From Paludisphaera mucosa (GTDB lineage: Bacteria > Planctomycetota > Planctomycetia > Isosphaerales > Isosphaeraceae), in the NCBI RefSeq assembly GCF_029589435.1, contig NZ_JARRAG010000001.1, positions 2,160,808 through 2,224,807 of the forward strand: a stretch of DNA of 64,000 nt, written 5' to 3'. The notes below the pieces were generated by a model. It saw nothing but the letters and a program-made list of their open reading frames with translations, did no database searches and was not told the origin of the DNA. Shown piece after piece: positions 2 to 6,124 of the stretch (the first letter of the stretch is position 1; each line of letters starts with the position of its first letter). The position numbers were made by a program, and so were the translations under genes.

Positions 2-991
2 CCCGACGGCCGGATCCAGTACCAGGTCGTCCACAGCCTGAGCGTCGGCCGCCGCAGCCAGGAAGTGCTGCGCGTGCTCTCGGCGCTCCAGTCGGGCGGG
101 CTCTGCCGGGAAGACTGGATGACCGACGGCTCGCACATCGACCCGTACACGGTCCTCCAGCCGGGTAACATCTTCTCGCACTATTACATGGATTCGGAGA
201 TCGGCGCGGGGACGTTCGCGCGGGTCTATCTGGCCCGCGACCTCCAGCTCGACCGCCCGGTCGCGCTGAAGGTCTTCAACCGCGACTGCCCGGTCACGCC
301 CAGCTCGGTCCTGGCCGAGGCCCGGTCGGTCGCGGCGCTCAACCATCCCAACATCTGCACGATCTACGCCGTCGACGACACGGCGGGCCTGCCGGTCATC
401 GCGATGGAGTACGTCCAGGGCCTCTCGCTGGCGAACCGGCTTCGCGGCGAGCCGGCGGCGATCGACGAGCTGCTGGCCATCGCCAGGCAGATCGCGGGGG
501 GGATGGCCGCGGCCCACGACGCCGGCATCGTCCACGGCGACCTGAAGCCGGAGAACATCATGGTCGGCGACGACGGCCTCGTGAAGGTCCTCGATTTCGG
601 CCTGGCGCGGCGGATCAACCGCGTCAACGCGACCGAATTGGAAGAGACCAGCGAGCTGGGCCTGGCCGAGGGGGGCGACGGCGTCTTCGGCACCCCGCGC
701 TACCTCGCGCCCGAGCAGACCCGGGGCGAGCCGGCGACCTTCGCCAGCGACGTCTTCGCGCTGGGCGTCGTCTTCTTCGAGATGGCGACCCGCCGGCCGG
801 CGTTCGCCGAGGGGAATGTGCTGCAGGTCATGGACCGGATCCGCAACGTCGACCCCGAGGCCATGGCCGCCGAGGCCGGCGAGCCGTTCACCCCCCTGCT
901 CCGCTCCATGCTCCTCGCCGACCCCACCCGGCGCGACGTCGCGATGCGACGGATCGTCGCCGAGATCGACGCCGTCTGCGAGTCGGTCTGA
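2..991 (+). CDS. Peroxiredoxin C-terminus fused to a Ser/Thr protein kinase (5' partial)
   Basis: The reading frame is open from the first bases of the window, so the gene starts outside it; 329 residues are visible. Counting from the first visible residue, positions 1-39 match the end of a typical 2-Cys peroxiredoxin: a PDGRIQYQVVHSL strand, a VGR turn, and GLCREDW, where C35 is the expected resolving cysteine. No stop follows. The chain runs directly into a Hanks-type kinase with a glycine loop GAGTFARV (68-75), Lys90 in VALKVF, HGDLKPEN (178-185), DFG at 198-200 and APE at 236-238. The catalytic loop is HGD rather than HRD. The kinase ends soon after its C-lobe and no membrane segment is seen. 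A kinase-only start at ATG 119 cannot be excluded, but the upstream homology in the same frame argues for one fused polypeptide. A redox-gated kinase is an inference. Confidence 0.85.
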   Translation, partial: PDGRIQYQVVHSLSVGRRSQEVLRVLSALQSGGLCREDWMTDGSHIDPYTVLQPGNIFSHYYMDSEIGAGTFARVYLARDLQLDRPVALKVFNRDCPVTPSSVLAEARSVAALNHPNICTIYAVDDTAGLPVIAMEYVQGLSLANRLRGEPAAIDELLAIARQIAGGMAAAHDAGIVHGDLKPENIMVGDDGLVKVLDFGLARRINRVNATELEETSELGLAEGGDGVFGTPRYLAPEQTRGEPATFASDVFALGVVFFEMATRRPAFAEGNVLQVMDRIRNVDPEAMAAEAGEPFTPLLRSMLLADPTRRDVAMRRIVAEIDAVCESV

Positions 992-1048: not shown

Positions 1049-1726
1049 GTGCCGCTTCCCGCCTCCGCGCCCCTCGCCATCTTCGACCATGACGGCGTGC
1101 TCGTGGACACCCTCAAGCTCCACCAGGACTCCTGGGTGGCCATGGGCCGCGAGACCGGCCTGGCCGTGACGCCCGAGCTGATCCTCGAGACGTTCGGGAT
1201 GACCAACGCCACGATCCTCCGGAAGATCCTGGGCGAGTCGCTCTCCGACGCCGACGTCCTGGCGTACTCCGACCGCAAGGAACACATCTATCGCGAGCTG
1301 GCCCGGGGCCGGATCGTGCTGATGGACGGGGCTCGCGAGTTCCTCGACGCCATGACCGAGGCCGGGGCGCTCTTGGCGATCGGCTCCAGCGGCGTCCGCC
1401 TCAACCTAGAGCTGACCGTCGAGGAGTGCGGCCTGCACGGCCGGTTCGCGACGATCGTCGCGGGCGAGGACGTCACCCGGGGCAAGCCCGACCCCCAGGT
1501 CTTCCTGCTGGCGGCCTCGCGCTCGGGCGTCCCGGCCGCGCGGTCGATCGTCTTCGAGGACGCCCCGGTGGGCATCCGCGCCGCGAAGGCCGCGGGCATG
1601 CTCGCCGTGGGGGTCACGTCGAGCCACGACGCCGCGGCTCTGCATGCCGCCGGGGCCGACCTGATCGTCCCCGACCTGAGCCGCTGCGACGCCCGCGAGC
1701 TGCTCGCCCGGCTCGATCAATCCTGA
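1049..1726 (+). CDS. HAD-superfamily hydrolase, phosphoglycolate phosphatase/beta-phosphoglucomutase-like
   Basis: A 225-residue protein with the HAD motif I DHDGVLVDT (nucleophile Asp13, acid/base Asp15), motif II around GSSG, a Lys in GKPDPQVF, and the late EDAPVGIRAAKAAGM motif that binds magnesium. The cap helices between motifs I and II place it in the subclass with phosphoglycolate phosphatases and beta-phosphoglucomutases. Its substrate cannot be read from sequence. The start is GTG 1049; no better start lies nearby. The last 10 bases overlap the convergent end of pnp. Its position beside nucleoside phosphorylases could point to a sugar phosphate such as (deoxy)ribose phosphate, which is a guess. 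Confidence 0.8.
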   Translation: MPLPASAPLAIFDHDGVLVDTLKLHQDSWVAMGRETGLAVTPELILETFGMTNATILRKILGESLSDADVLAYSDRKEHIYRELARGRIVLMDGAREFLDAMTEAGALLAIGSSGVRLNLELTVEECGLHGRFATIVAGEDVTRGKPDPQVFLLAASRSGVPAARSIVFEDAPVGIRAAKAAGMLAVGVTSSHDAAALHAAGADLIVPDLSRCDARELLARLDQS

Positions 1727-2619
1727 CGATAGGTCGGGAACTCGCCGCTGAAGCCGACGTTGCCGGGGGCGACGCCGGCCAGCCGCAGGACGACGCGGCG
1801 GATCAGCTTGCCGAGCATCGGCGTGGCCTTGCGGCCGGCTTCCAGGACGTCCTCGTGGCGGATCGGCGCGGGGAGCACGCCCGCCGCCGCGTTCGTGACG
1901 AGGGCCAGGCCCAGGACGTCCATGCCGCCGTGCCTCGCGACGATCGCCTCGGGGACGGTCGACATGCCCACCACGTCGGCCCCGAGCGTCCGGAGCATGC
2001 GGATCTCGGCGGGCGTCTCGTAGCTCGGGCCGGGGAGGCAGGCGTAGACGGCCGAGACCAGGTGGACGCCCAGCCGCTTGGCCTCCTCCTTGGCCATGTT
2101 CCGCAGCCGCTTCGAGTAGACCTCGGACATGTCCGGGAACCGCTCGCCGAGCCTGGGGTCGGCCGGGCCGCGCAGCGGGTTGGAGCCGATCAGGTTCAAG
2201 TGGTCGGACAGGCAGACGAGGTTCCCGGGCCTCAGCTCGGAACGGACCCCGCCCGTCGCCGCGGTGAGGATCACCTGCTGCACACCCAGGCGCTGGAGGA
2301 CTCGCATGGGAAAGGTGATCGTGCGGAGGTCGTAGCCTTCGTAGTAGTGGAAACGGCCCTGCAGCGTCAAGACGTCGGCGCCGTCGATCGAGCCCAGGAC
2401 GACGTTCCCGGCGTGGCCCTGGACGGTGGGGGTCGGGAAGAACGGAATCTGGGCGTAAGGGATCGTCTTGCGGTCGTCGAACCGGTCGACGAGCCCGTTG
2501 AGGCCCGAGCCGAGCACGATCGCGATCCGGGGCGGTCGGCCGCCGGCCGCCTGGCGGATGACCTCGGCGGCCTCGTCGGCCTTGGCGACGAGATCGGGGT
2601 TCTGGGACGTCGGGCTCAT
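1717..2619 (-). CDS. Purine nucleoside phosphorylase
   Basis: A 300-residue PNP of the trimeric (inosine/guanosine) type, which splits purine nucleosides with phosphate to free base and ribose-1-phosphate. Visible motifs are the phosphate loop GSGLNG (37-42), GHAGN near 70, the GRFHYYEGY segment, PGPSYETPAE, the VGMSTVPE segment and a late TNAAAG. The start ATG overlaps the nupC stop as ATGA (2616-2619), which suggests translational coupling. It is the last gene of the upp-deoA-nupC-pnp salvage operon. Its 3' end overlaps the HAD gene on the other strand by 10 bases. Confidence 0.93.
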   Translation of the reverse strand: MSPTSQNPDLVAKADEAAEVIRQAAGGRPPRIAIVLGSGLNGLVDRFDDRKTIPYAQIPFFPTPTVQGHAGNVVLGSIDGADVLTLQGRFHYYEGYDLRTITFPMRVLQRLGVQQVILTAATGGVRSELRPGNLVCLSDHLNLIGSNPLRGPADPRLGERFPDMSEVYSKRLRNMAKEEAKRLGVHLVSAVYACLPGPSYETPAEIRMLRTLGADVVGMSTVPEAIVARHGGMDVLGLALVTNAAAGVLPAPIRHEDVLEAGRKATPMLGKLIRRVVLRLAGVAPGNVGFSGEFPTYRQD

Positions 2620-4091
2620 AGCAGGATCCCCGCGATGCAGGCCGAGAGGAAGTTGGCCATGGTTCCGGCCAGCAAGGCCCGCCCGCCGAGCCGGGCCAGG
2701 TCCTTCCGGCGGTCCGGCGCCAGGGCGCCGATGCCGCCGATCTGGATCCCGATCGAGCTGACGTTCGCGAAGCCGCAGAGGGCGAAGCTGGCGATCACCA
2801 CCGAGCGTTCCATGAGGGCGGGCCGCATCGCGTCGAGCTGCTGGAAGGCGATCAGCTCATTCAGCACGGTCCGCGTCCCCATCAGGCCGCCGACGGCCCG
2901 GCAGTCCTCCCAGGGGACGCCGAGTAGGTAGGCGACCGGCGCCAGGGCCCAGCCGAAGACGTTCTCCAGCTTGTACCCCGTCGGGCTGAGAGTCAGGTTG
3001 ACGAGCGCGACCAACCCGACGAAGGCGATCAGGACCGCGGCGATGTTGAGCGACAGGCTGAGGCCGTCGCGCGTGCCCCGCGCGGCGGCGTCGAGGATGT
3101 TGGCGTCCTCGCGGTCGTCGTGGCGGCGGATCCCGCCCAGCGTCTCGGGCTTCTCGGTCTCGGGCACGAGCAGCTTGGACAGCAGCACCGCGCCCGGGGC
3201 CGTCATCACGACGGCCGTCAGCACGTGCCGCGGCTCGACGCCGTAGGCGAAATAGGCCGCCATCACGCCCCCCGAGACGTGCGCCATGCCGGCCGTCATG
3301 ACCGTCATCAGCTCGGAGTTCGTGAGCTTGGCGAGATACGGCCGGATGGTGAGCGGGGCCTCGGTCTGGCCCAGGAAGAGCGAGGCCGCGACGTCCAGCG
3401 ACTCGGCCCCGCTGATCCCCATCAGCCAGGCCATCGCCACGGCGAACGAGCGGACGATCCACTGCATCACGCCCAGATGGTAGAGCACCGCGAAGAGCGC
3501 CGCGACGAAGATCACCGTGGGCAGTACGCGGAAGGCGAAGACGAAGCCGACGGGGCCGTCGGCGTCGACCAGCGCGGGCCCGAAGACGAACCGGGCGCCG
3601 TCGAGTGCGCAGTTCAGCACCGACTCGACGAGCGTGCCGGCTTCGCGGAGAACTCGCACCCCCACCGGGGCGCGCAGCACGAGGATCGCGAAGAGCCACT
3701 GGAGCGCCAGGCCCCAGAACACGACGCGGCGCGAGATCGCCCGCCGGTCCGTCGAGAGATATACCGCGATCGCCAGGATCAGGGCCATGCCGACCAGGCC
3801 CCGGAGCCGGTCGGCCCAGTCGAAGAGGTCGACGTCCTCCGGCGCCGAAAACCGCAGGCTCCAGGGGCCCAGCGTTAGCCGGTATCCCTTCCGGACCTCG
3901 ACCTCTCCGACCCGCACGACCTCCGTCGCCTGCGCGTCGGGGGCCGCCGGATCGGCGGGGATGGAGGCGGAGGCCGCGGCCGCGGCGCGATCGTCGCCGG
4001 CCGAGGCCCCGCCGGCCTGGCCCGGGTCGGCCGCGGCCGAGGTCGCCGTCGCGAAGGCCGCGACGATCAGGATCGGGATCAGCCTTCGCAT
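2616..4091 (-). CDS. nupC: NupC/CNT-family concentrative nucleoside transporter
   Basis: A 491-residue inner-membrane protein of the CNT family, which imports nucleosides with H+ or Na+. The CNT core is clear: APVGVRVL, the GARFVFGP segment, SGAESLDVAASLFLGQTEAP, the GGVMAAY segment, and FANVSSIGIQIGG near the end. The N-terminus is unusual: a signal-peptide-like segment (MRRLIPILIVAAF...) and an Ala/Asp-rich stretch precede the first core helix, so about 80 residues may lie outside the membrane. The chosen start has GAAGGG a few bases upstream. An in-frame ATG at 4139 overlaps the deoA stop as ATGA and would add 16 residues; it remains possible. Confidence 0.9.
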   Translation of the reverse strand: MRRLIPILIVAAFATATSAAADPGQAGGASAGDDRAAAAASASIPADPAAPDAQATEVVRVGEVEVRKGYRLTLGPWSLRFSAPEDVDLFDWADRLRGLVGMALILAIAVYLSTDRRAISRRVVFWGLALQWLFAILVLRAPVGVRVLREAGTLVESVLNCALDGARFVFGPALVDADGPVGFVFAFRVLPTVIFVAALFAVLYHLGVMQWIVRSFAVAMAWLMGISGAESLDVAASLFLGQTEAPLTIRPYLAKLTNSELMTVMTAGMAHVSGGVMAAYFAYGVEPRHVLTAVVMTAPGAVLLSKLLVPETEKPETLGGIRRHDDREDANILDAAARGTRDGLSLSLNIAAVLIAFVGLVALVNLTLSPTGYKLENVFGWALAPVAYLLGVPWEDCRAVGGLMGTRTVLNELIAFQQLDAMRPALMERSVVIASFALCGFANVSSIGIQIGGIGALAPDRRKDLARLGGRALLAGTMANFLSACIAGILL

Positions 4092-4135
4092 CGATTCGCC
4101 CTTCGTCAACGATCCAGGAACACCCGACGGATGCT

Positions 4136-5452
4136 TCATTCGACCCTCACCAGCCGGTCCACGATCAGCGAAGGGGTCTCCACGGGCCCGTCCCTCCAGT
4201 GGTAGGCGGCCGCGATCTTCGCGACGGCGCGCTCCAGCTCGGACTCGTCGTTCACCAGGATCGTGCAGAGCGACTCGCCCAGCTCGACGGCGTCGCCGAG
4301 CTTCTTGTGGAGGATCACCCCCACGGCCGGGTCGATGGCCGAGTCGACGCGGGCCCTCCCCGCGCCCAGGAGCATCGTGGCGTCGCCGATCGGCCGGGCG
4401 TCGAGCCGGGCGACCCGGCCGGACCGGTCGGCCTTCAGCTCGATGGTCCGTCGCGGTTGGGGCAGCAGGCCCGGATCGTCGATGACCCGGGGATCGCCCC
4501 CTTGCGCCGCGATCAGGCGGCGGAACCGTTCCAACGCCGTGCCGTCGGCGACCGTCCGCTCGCAGATCCCGCGCGCCTCGTCGAGCGTCCCGGCCAGGCC
4601 CGCGAGCAGGACCATCTCGGCCGCCAGGTCGAGCGAGAGCCCCGTCAGGTCCTCGGGCCCCTCCCCCTTCAGGCAGGCGACGCTCTCGGCGACCTCGACC
4701 GCGTTGCCGACCGCCCGGCCCAGCGGCTGGTCCATCCTCGTGATCAGGGCGACCATCTTCTTGCCCATCGAGCGGCCGACGTCGCACATCGTCTCGGCCA
4801 GGAGCCGCGAGTCTTCGAGGGCCACCATGAACGCGCCGCCGCCGGTCTTGACGTCGAGGACCAGGCCGTCGATCCCCTCGGCCAGCTTCTTCGACATGAT
4901 CGACGCCGCGATCAGGGGGATCGACTCGACGGTCGACGTGGCGTCGCGCATGGCGTACAGGAACTTGTCGGCGGGCGCGATCTCCTTCGTCTGGCCGATC
5001 AAGACCAGGCCGGTCTCGCCGAGGATCTCGCGGTAGCGGTCGAGGTCGACGTCAACCGTGAAGCCGGGGATCGACTCCAGCTTGTCGAGCGTCCCCCCGG
5101 TGTGGCCCAGGCCGCGGCCCGAGACCATCGGCACGAGCACGCCGGCCGCGGCGGCGATCGGCGCCAGGATCAGCGAGGTCTTGTCGCCCACGCCGCCGGT
5201 GCTGTGCTTGTCGACCTTCGCGCCCGGGGTCGCCGACAGGTCGACCACGACGCCCGAGCGCATCATCGCGTCGGTCAGGGCCACGGTCTCGGAGCGGTCC
5301 ATCCCCTTCAGCACGATCGCCATCAGCAGCGCCGACCATTGGTAGTCGGCGACGTCGCCTCGCGCGATGCCCTCGACCATCCAGTCGATCTCGGCCGTCG
5401 CGAGCGCCTCGCCGTCGCGCTTCTTCCGGATGACGTCCACCGCGCGGACCAT
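4136..5452 (-). CDS. deoA: Thymidine/pyrimidine-nucleoside phosphorylase
   Basis: A 438-residue enzyme that phosphorolyses thymidine, deoxyuridine or uridine to base and (deoxy)ribose-1-phosphate. The family signature is present: KHSTGGVGDKTS (82-93) followed by SGRGLGHTGGTLDKLESIPG. The three-domain length (helical, alpha/beta phosphate-binding, C-terminal) is complete. Whether it is strictly thymidine-specific (DeoA) or a broader pyrimidine phosphorylase (Pdp) cannot be settled by eye. It lies 28 bases downstream of upp and just upstream of nupC, so the operon couples uptake to base recovery. Confidence 0.93.
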   Translation of the reverse strand: MVRAVDVIRKKRDGEALATAEIDWMVEGIARGDVADYQWSALLMAIVLKGMDRSETVALTDAMMRSGVVVDLSATPGAKVDKHSTGGVGDKTSLILAPIAAAAGVLVPMVSGRGLGHTGGTLDKLESIPGFTVDVDLDRYREILGETGLVLIGQTKEIAPADKFLYAMRDATSTVESIPLIAASIMSKKLAEGIDGLVLDVKTGGGAFMVALEDSRLLAETMCDVGRSMGKKMVALITRMDQPLGRAVGNAVEVAESVACLKGEGPEDLTGLSLDLAAEMVLLAGLAGTLDEARGICERTVADGTALERFRRLIAAQGGDPRVIDDPGLLPQPRRTIELKADRSGRVARLDARPIGDATMLLGAGRARVDSAIDPAVGVILHKKLGDAVELGESLCTILVNDESELERAVAKIAAAYHWRDGPVETPSLIVDRLVRVE

Positions 5453-5479
5453 GTCGATCGGCCTCCCTGATGCGGCTGG

Positions 5480-6124
5480 CTAGGATTCGTGGCGATCGGG
5501 CGTCGTGCCGAACTGGCGGTCGCCGGCGTCGCCGAGCCCGGGGTAGATGAAGGCGACGTCGGTCAGCCGATCGTCGACGGCGCCGACGTGGATGGGGACG
5601 TCTGGCATGGCCTGGGCCATCCGCGCGATCCCCTCGGGCGCGGCGATGAGCGAGATCAGCTTGAGCCGGGGGACGCCGGCGGCCTTGAGGATCTCGCAGG
5701 TGCGCACGGCGGAGCCGCCGGTGGCGAGCATCGGATCGACCACCAGCGCGACCGTCAGCCGGGGCCGCGCGGGGAGCTTGTTGTAGTACTCCATCGGCCG
5801 CAGCGTGGCCTCGTCGCGATAGAGGCCGATGTGCCAGACCTCGGCCTCGGGGAGCAGCTCGATCAGGCCGTCCGCCATGCCCAGCCCCGCGCGCAGCACC
5901 GGGACGATCCCGACGACGTCGGCGAGCACGAACGACCGCGCCGGGCCGAGCGGCGTCCGCACTGAGACCTCGCGCGTCGGCAGGTCGGCGGTCGCCTCCT
6001 GGCCGAGCAGGAGGGCGAGGCTCCGCACCAAGGCCCGGAATTCCGGCGGCCGAGTGGCGACGCCCCGGAGCGCCGCGAGCTTCTGATGGACGATCGGATG
6101 CGACGACGCGTAAACCGACGACAC
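5480..6124 (-). CDS. upp: Uracil phosphoribosyltransferase
   Basis: A 214-residue type I phosphoribosyltransferase that converts uracil and PRPP to UMP. The PRPP loop VDPMLATGGSA lies at 129-139, the VPVLRAGLGM segment near 74-83 and the uracil-binding YPGLGDAGDR near the C-terminus. It is the first gene of the salvage operon (upp, deoA, nupC, pnp): uracil released by DeoA is captured as UMP. The upstream 198 bases to the sulfatase stop should carry the operon promoter, but I could not pick one with confidence. Confidence 0.95.
   Translation of the reverse strand: MSSVYASSHPIVHQKLAALRGVATRPPEFRALVRSLALLLGQEATADLPTREVSVRTPLGPARSFVLADVVGIVPVLRAGLGMADGLIELLPEAEVWHIGLYRDEATLRPMEYYNKLPARPRLTVALVVDPMLATGGSAVRTCEILKAAGVPRLKLISLIAAPEGIARMAQAMPDVPIHVGAVDDRLTDVAFIYPGLGDAGDRQFGTTPDRHES

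Follow-up and report, generated by a model that had tools for sequence, protein, structure and literature searches.

The window analysed here, a stretch of 64,000 nucleotides of the Paludisphaera mucosa genome (G000:C1:2160808-2224807), opens inside a gene that encodes an AhpC/Prx1-type 2-Cys peroxiredoxin followed by a Hanks-type Ser/Thr kinase in one continuous protein. The 5' end of this gene is cut off by the window edge; the 3' part occupies positions 2..991 (+) as a single frame, open at the edge and with no internal stops. Extended leftward, the frame begins at an ATG at G000:C1:2160410 (L011:9603) and encodes 462 amino acids, the first 133 codons lying left of the window and residues 134-462 within it. 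There is an alternative in-frame GTG 24 bases upstream, and the ATG was taken as the start because the alignment of relatives begins at about that point. The peroxidatic cysteine, C51, lies within FYPRDFSMVCPTE, upstream of the window. A sequence-only reading of the window had described a frame running without a break from peroxiredoxin residues into a kinase domain, and had proposed extending the sequence leftward to confirm the peroxidatic cysteine and the true start; the unbroken frame was borne out, and both features were found upstream in it.

Pfam assigns an AhpC-TSA domain to residues 6-140 of the full protein (E 1.4e-33; 115.9 bits against a gathering cut-off of 26) and a Pkinase domain to residues 196-445 (E 1.9e-43; 149.2 bits against 31.7), the latter at 188..937 (+). 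In phmmer comparisons the peroxiredoxin part aligns with Prx1 and Prx2 from the PDB as far as residue 181, beyond the resolving cysteine and into the C-terminal arm; the C-terminal part of this domain (residues 134-181) fills 2..145 (+) and ends at the IDP of the arm. The resolving cysteine, C168, sits in GLCREDW (104..106, +), and a linker of 32 residues (107..202, +) leads from it to the glycine loop of the kinase. Next come the ATP-binding lysine K223 (269..271, +), the catalytic HGD motif H311-D313 (533..541, +) and the DFG motif D331-G333 (593..601, +). The residues that the sequence-only reading gave as K90, D180 and DFG 198-200, numbered from the window edge and equal to K223, D313 and D331-G333 of the full protein, are all present, as is its cysteine in GLCREDW. 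No chain covering both domains was found among the best 60 of 85 PDB matches.

Neither a stop nor a frameshift separates the two domains in the window's gene, and all five further genomes of the genus that were searched carry the gene intact (76-87% identity over residues 1-462, or 1-459 in one, with no stops). An assembly or frame artefact, or a pair of separate genes, was therefore ruled out.

Gene neighbourhood

A gene for a HAD-family hydrolase, outside the fusion, follows 57 bases downstream (1049..1726, +). Of 13 f1 genomes examined, 9 have this gene next to the fusion, and it was not found in the four of genus g20 or in the loci of other families examined; it is a possible partner of the fusion protein. 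Left of the window, 120 bases upstream of the fusion, is an ATC hydrolase gene (PF14196, 1.5e-35; L011:8868-9482), for which the loci examined gave one other occurrence, in the congeneric genome G031. Further into the window, the frames at 1717-6124 (-), judged by eye, resemble what we take to be a nucleoside salvage cluster, presumably encoding a purine nucleoside phosphorylase, a nucleoside transporter, a thymidine phosphorylase and a uracil phosphoribosyltransferase.

The survey of neighbours covered ORFs of at least 80 amino acids in flanks that spanned roughly 1.5 to 10 kb, with alternative-frame ORFs judged by eye. In 38 loci, no neighbour recurred between families besides the fusion itself, alternative-frame ORFs and one gene pair, so that the neighbourhood indicates no pathway, regulon or reductase. 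This pair, two adjacent genes near the fusion, is common to one f5 genome (G086, L132) and one f8 genome (G219, L036). The window's genome as a whole has 106 kinase matches. It also has a separate stand-alone peroxiredoxin with both cysteines (L171), which means that the fusion need not be the protein that clears most of the peroxide. In five genomes searched, one or more additional peroxiredoxin-like matches turned up in each.

Distribution of the fusion

The sequence-only reading had proposed looking for the same architecture in other planctomycetes, and it was found there: within the class, 42 of the 397 genomes searched carry it (22/185 genera), as do three more in the phylum. The family search gave 17/45 genomes and 6/21 genera, the order search comprised the same 45 genomes, and scoring 36 candidates per genome in the family returned the same 17 members. 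By family, the class matches number 17 in f1, 15 in f2, three in f3, two in f5, one in f8, three in f13 and one in f23; a separate search of f3 (3/81) returned the same three. Part-length matches occur among the 42; all 42 reading frames were inspected and both domains are present in each, with one frame carrying a TAG in between. In G155 a TAG lies inside the kinase N-lobe, and in the six other carriers of its genus the fusion has no stop there. The phylum search matched 12/392 genomes, the three outside the class being G422, G439 and G499. A Pirellulaceae MAG (L042) brings the total to 46 genomes. It came from a contig scan that returned at least 80 loci, of which L042 alone spans both domains among the matches listed; the scan gives no measure of frequency, and its pattern contains the cysteine, placing the members with TGA described below outside its reach. 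As four first-look candidates were scored per genome in the class, phylum and Acidobacteriota searches, the fusion counts are lower bounds.

Acidobacteriota gave no match in 396 genomes at E 1e-95, a threshold that planctomycete members pass with the same model at 9.5e-155 or better. Among 24 genomes reached through loci (23 of them non-planctomycete by title) searched at 1e-60, a match to both domains was listed in the Pirellulaceae genome only. One scan of viruses returned no relative of the peroxiredoxin part; 413 plasmid records match it, the best at 47% identity.

Two of the three genomes outside the class deserve mention. The G422 protein (L161) is a peroxiredoxin-kinase-kinase in a frame of 839 amino acids, and one of its kinases is of the HGD type (HGDIKP) while the second has HRD. 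In G439, a planctomycete genome of 12.3 Mb, the fusion model had 1088 first-look candidates, a hint that its complement of kinases is very large.

Conservation of both domains and of the linker

The conservation alignment (n = 43) comprised the 42 members of the class and L042. On the peroxiredoxin side C168 and R127 are invariant (43/43), P44 is kept in 42/43, position 48 is Ser in 42/43 and Thr in one, and position 51 is Cys in 41/43 and a TGA codon in the other two. The second Gly of a GGLG-like motif is present in 43/43 and the fourth in 32/43. On the kinase side K223, E239, H311, G312, D313, K315, N318 and D331 are each found in 43/43, and DFG is complete in 42/43. The exception, L036 (G219), reads DY; its activation segment is nearly deleted, and this kinase may be inactive. 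The arginine of HRD is replaced throughout: a Gly precedes the catalytic Asp in 43/43 fusions, placing them outside the RD subclass, whereas HRD was found in 67/67 motif hits of other kinases (eight hits from nine loci in the same genome, 59 from 79 loci in others), with a strict pattern that recovered 21 HGD in 31 fusion loci.

The distance from the resolving cysteine to the glycine loop is 32 residues in 38 of 41 measured members and 33 in the remaining three; with other patterns it is 32 in 39/42 and 33 in 3/42. The activation segment ranges from 25 to 66 residues across 39 measured members. Several core segments, among them those from the peroxidatic cysteine to VGR and from the glycine loop to the lysine, are likewise constant in length, so the near-constant linker may partly reflect a single descent with few indels. 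Pairwise dN/dS between the window's genome and four of its genus was 0.13-0.20 for the peroxiredoxin, 0.03-0.36 for the linker and 0.10-0.39 for the kinase; all three parts are under purifying selection in these five genomes. A FastTree phylogeny from one alignment groups 44 fused kinases in a single clade apart from 62 others, with support 1.0; the 62 non-fusion kinases were chosen by an HRD pattern, and two fusions were left out, L139, which is broken, and L132, which the pattern missed.

These data bear on whether the two enzymes are coupled at all. Independent enzymes joined by a chance gene fusion would be in keeping with the lack of operon partners conserved across families, with the abundance of kinases in the window's genome and with the presence there of a further peroxiredoxin. 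However, the fused kinases are a single well-supported clade, the fusion has been kept in seven families of the class and also outside it, and the length of the linker is nearly fixed; we regard a chance joining as very unlikely.

AlphaFold2 prediction of L042 gave a good kinase but low confidence across most of the peroxiredoxin part (block pLDDT values of about 26-67), from an alignment of 31 rows in which the first row alone covers the whole peroxiredoxin. The peroxiredoxin part and the arrangement of the domains were left without resolution in this model.

Probable selenocysteine forms

Two members of family f3 from different genera, L033 (G332) and L035 (G308), have TGA at position 51, after which the frame stays open through the whole kinase. 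Both genomes contain a tRNA-Sec with anticodon TCA and a SelB match above the curated cut-off, and it is on this machinery that we read the TGA as probably encoding selenocysteine. An in-frame TGA at the redox cysteine together with Sec machinery in the genome, our mark of a selenoprotein, is thus seen in two relatives. Use of selenocysteine in G308 is further supported by a second peroxiredoxin (L173), probably a selenoprotein too, whose peroxidatic codon is TGA. The two assemblies with TGA members are drafts of 79% and 86% completeness, so contamination by Sec genes is possible. The third f3 member (G198) has tRNA-Sec and SelB and keeps the cysteine; G219 has tRNA-Sec and no SelB above the cut-off; and the window's genome has no SelB above the cut-off, while its tRNA-Sec score, 47.7 bits against 47, is marginal.

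According to an extract of a recent review, a bSECIS has a loop of 3-9 nt with G in the first two places, an upper stem of 4-16 bp, a distance of 16-37 nt from the UGA and an energy of at most -7.5 (PMC13188914). Hairpins within these rules occur in both TGA genes (2/2), at 17 nt, and also in 6/43 Cys genes, at other spacings; 45 of 46 genes were recovered by pattern for this comparison, L134 being missed. The two TGA-gene hairpins share an ACCGC/GCGGU stem, that of L033 lying exactly at the energy limit. At that place, which was picked after looking, all five pairs can form in 2/2 TGA genes as against 0/43 Cys genes. Counting against a bSECIS is the minimum-energy fold of L033, a different hairpin whose loop is too near the UGA.

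Two other hits contain a stop codon. L175 (G001) was considered as a selenoprotein with a TGA inside and rejected, as it is an ordinary Cys-containing PrxQ-type protein that ends normally at this TGA. A peroxiredoxin match with one internal TAG lies at G755:C27:44487-45002, in the genome to which L056 belongs, titled as a Desulfuromonadaceae MAG.

The conservation of the redox residues can be set against the idea that the peroxiredoxin ring is a mere oligomerisation scaffold, or a local peroxide shield, for the kinase and that no signal passes through its redox cycle. Decamers of Ser-type 2-Cys peroxiredoxins, which have Ser and not Thr in the catalytic triad, are the more stable ones according to an extract of PMC8300647, and would cluster the attached kinases; with Ser at position 48 in 42/43 members, the same property was counted for a sensor. 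A scaffold would need neither C51, C168 and R127 (43/43, with two of the C51 positions as TGA) nor selenocysteine at the peroxidatic site; a shield would need them, so the argument bears on the scaffold form alone. We consider this explanation, taken as a whole, unlikely.

Discussion

In this family an intact peroxiredoxin (P44, S48, C51, R127, C168) and an intact Ser/Thr kinase make up one continuous chain and are conserved as a unit. The conserved active sites, the probable exchange of Sec and Cys and the near-constant linker fit the direct peroxide sensor-kinase proposed by the sequence-only reading, and suggest that the fusion is a kinase that feels hydrogen peroxide directly. Our main reading, to which we give a probability of roughly 0.6, is that a single soluble (cytosolic) protein both senses peroxide and signals it, with the kinase attached to the peroxiredoxin's mobile C-terminal arm.

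Typical 2-Cys peroxiredoxins cycle through a sulfenic acid and an inter-subunit disulfide, with local unfolding. By analogy, peroxide would oxidise C51 to the sulfenic acid, which would then form a disulfide with C168 of the partner chain, a step expected to unfold the active-site loop and the C-terminal arm. The arm ends freely in an ordinary peroxiredoxin and here would run directly into the N-lobe of the kinase. Its movement, together with a change of oligomer (a peroxiredoxin dimer or ring), could bring the kinase domains into new positions and so switch them, most probably by permitting trans-phosphorylation between kinases held on one peroxiredoxin assembly, and a thioredoxin-type reductant would reset the sensor. 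We slightly favour oxidation switching the kinase on rather than off. The Arg of HRD normally reads the phosphorylated activation loop, and control through the N-terminal peroxiredoxin domain is plausible for a kinase that lacks it. A more specific picture, which we hold tentatively and at somewhat less than even odds, is that of a peroxide-gated kinase ring, in which each peroxiredoxin dimer or decamer would carry several kinases, and redox cycling of Cys or Sec would move the shared arm so that neighbours phosphorylate each other.

Several observations weigh against a peroxide sensor. The searches found no fusion in 355 of the 397 class genomes. Among the members, L036 has an abnormal DFG and another is interrupted by a TAG, and the loci show no partner gene kept across families. 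Furthermore, a plain peroxidase would be expected to show the same conservation of catalytic residues, selenocysteine among them. Another explanation is that the kinase phosphorylates its own peroxiredoxin domain, in cis or in trans, and so tunes scavenging, the output being peroxidase activity rather than signalling. Both catalytic sites are conserved, as this would require, and eukaryotic peroxiredoxins are controlled by phosphorylation (one example appears in an extract of PMC7912311). Nevertheless, with a further peroxiredoxin-like match in each of five genomes, a dedicated scavenger that bears a kinase seems costly, and we think self-phosphorylation improbable as the main role.

Eukaryotic peroxiredoxins pass peroxide signals to kinases via transient contacts; a natural and conserved one-chain form would make such signalling directly testable on purified protein. 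If the sensor reading is true, the fusion would be a bacterial peroxide receptor unlike OxyR or PerR, which are receptors of another kind. If the ring reading is also true, receptor and kinase for peroxide would be united in a single protein, of which a selenoprotein version exists as well. The probable Sec form would link a selenoprotein to a kinase output.

The sequence-only reading knew of no characterised example of this fusion, in agreement with the open-licence PMC text, where no description of a peroxiredoxin-kinase fusion appeared among the matches listed for the fusion, for planctomycete kinases and for Sec-peroxiredoxins. A survey of planctomycete Ser/Thr kinases describes, in the portion available, 105 accessory domain groups (PMC11032199); the terms peroxiredoxin, AhpC, redox, redoxin and thioredoxin have no hits in the available main text, and its supplementary tables may list the architecture. 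The available text of the 2026 selenoproteome review (PMC13188914) contains peroxiredoxin six times, kinase twice (both as PSTK) and planctomycet not at all. SELO, a kinase-like selenoprotein in an extract of PMC3281104, is unrelated to the fusion.

The fusion can be compared with four known systems. Like typical 2-Cys peroxiredoxins (Prx1/AhpC, and Prx1 and Prx2 of rat and human), it has the AhpC-TSA domain, the PxxxSxxC motif, the catalytic Arg, a resolving Cys in the arm and a GGLG-like motif, and its best PDB match has E 1.4e-37. In these proteins the terminal segment bears the YF motif; in the fusion, that segment is replaced by the kinase. NCBIfam equivalog scores fall below their cut-offs (99.3 of 272 bits for AhpC and 117.8 of 270 for PrxU), so we have not filed the fusion as AhpC or PrxU proper. 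Like the bacterial Hanks-type kinases PknB and StkP, it has all the catalytic motifs (7.7e-38 to StkP and 1.9e-34 to PknB in the PDB), but it carries an N-terminal peroxiredoxin instead of their other domains, which are PASTA domains, and HGD instead of HRD. With the Sec peroxiredoxins, PrxU and others, it shares a peroxidatic TGA in two relatives and Sec machinery in the genome; to our knowledge those are stand-alone proteins, whereas the peroxiredoxin of the fusion is joined to a kinase. Finally, the proposed working resembles the eukaryotic relays Tpx1-Sty1, Prx1-ASK1 and Tsa1-PKA, as peroxide would be taken up by a peroxiredoxin and conveyed to a kinase; however, those relays employ two separate proteins, and in the planctomycete fusion both partners are one chain.
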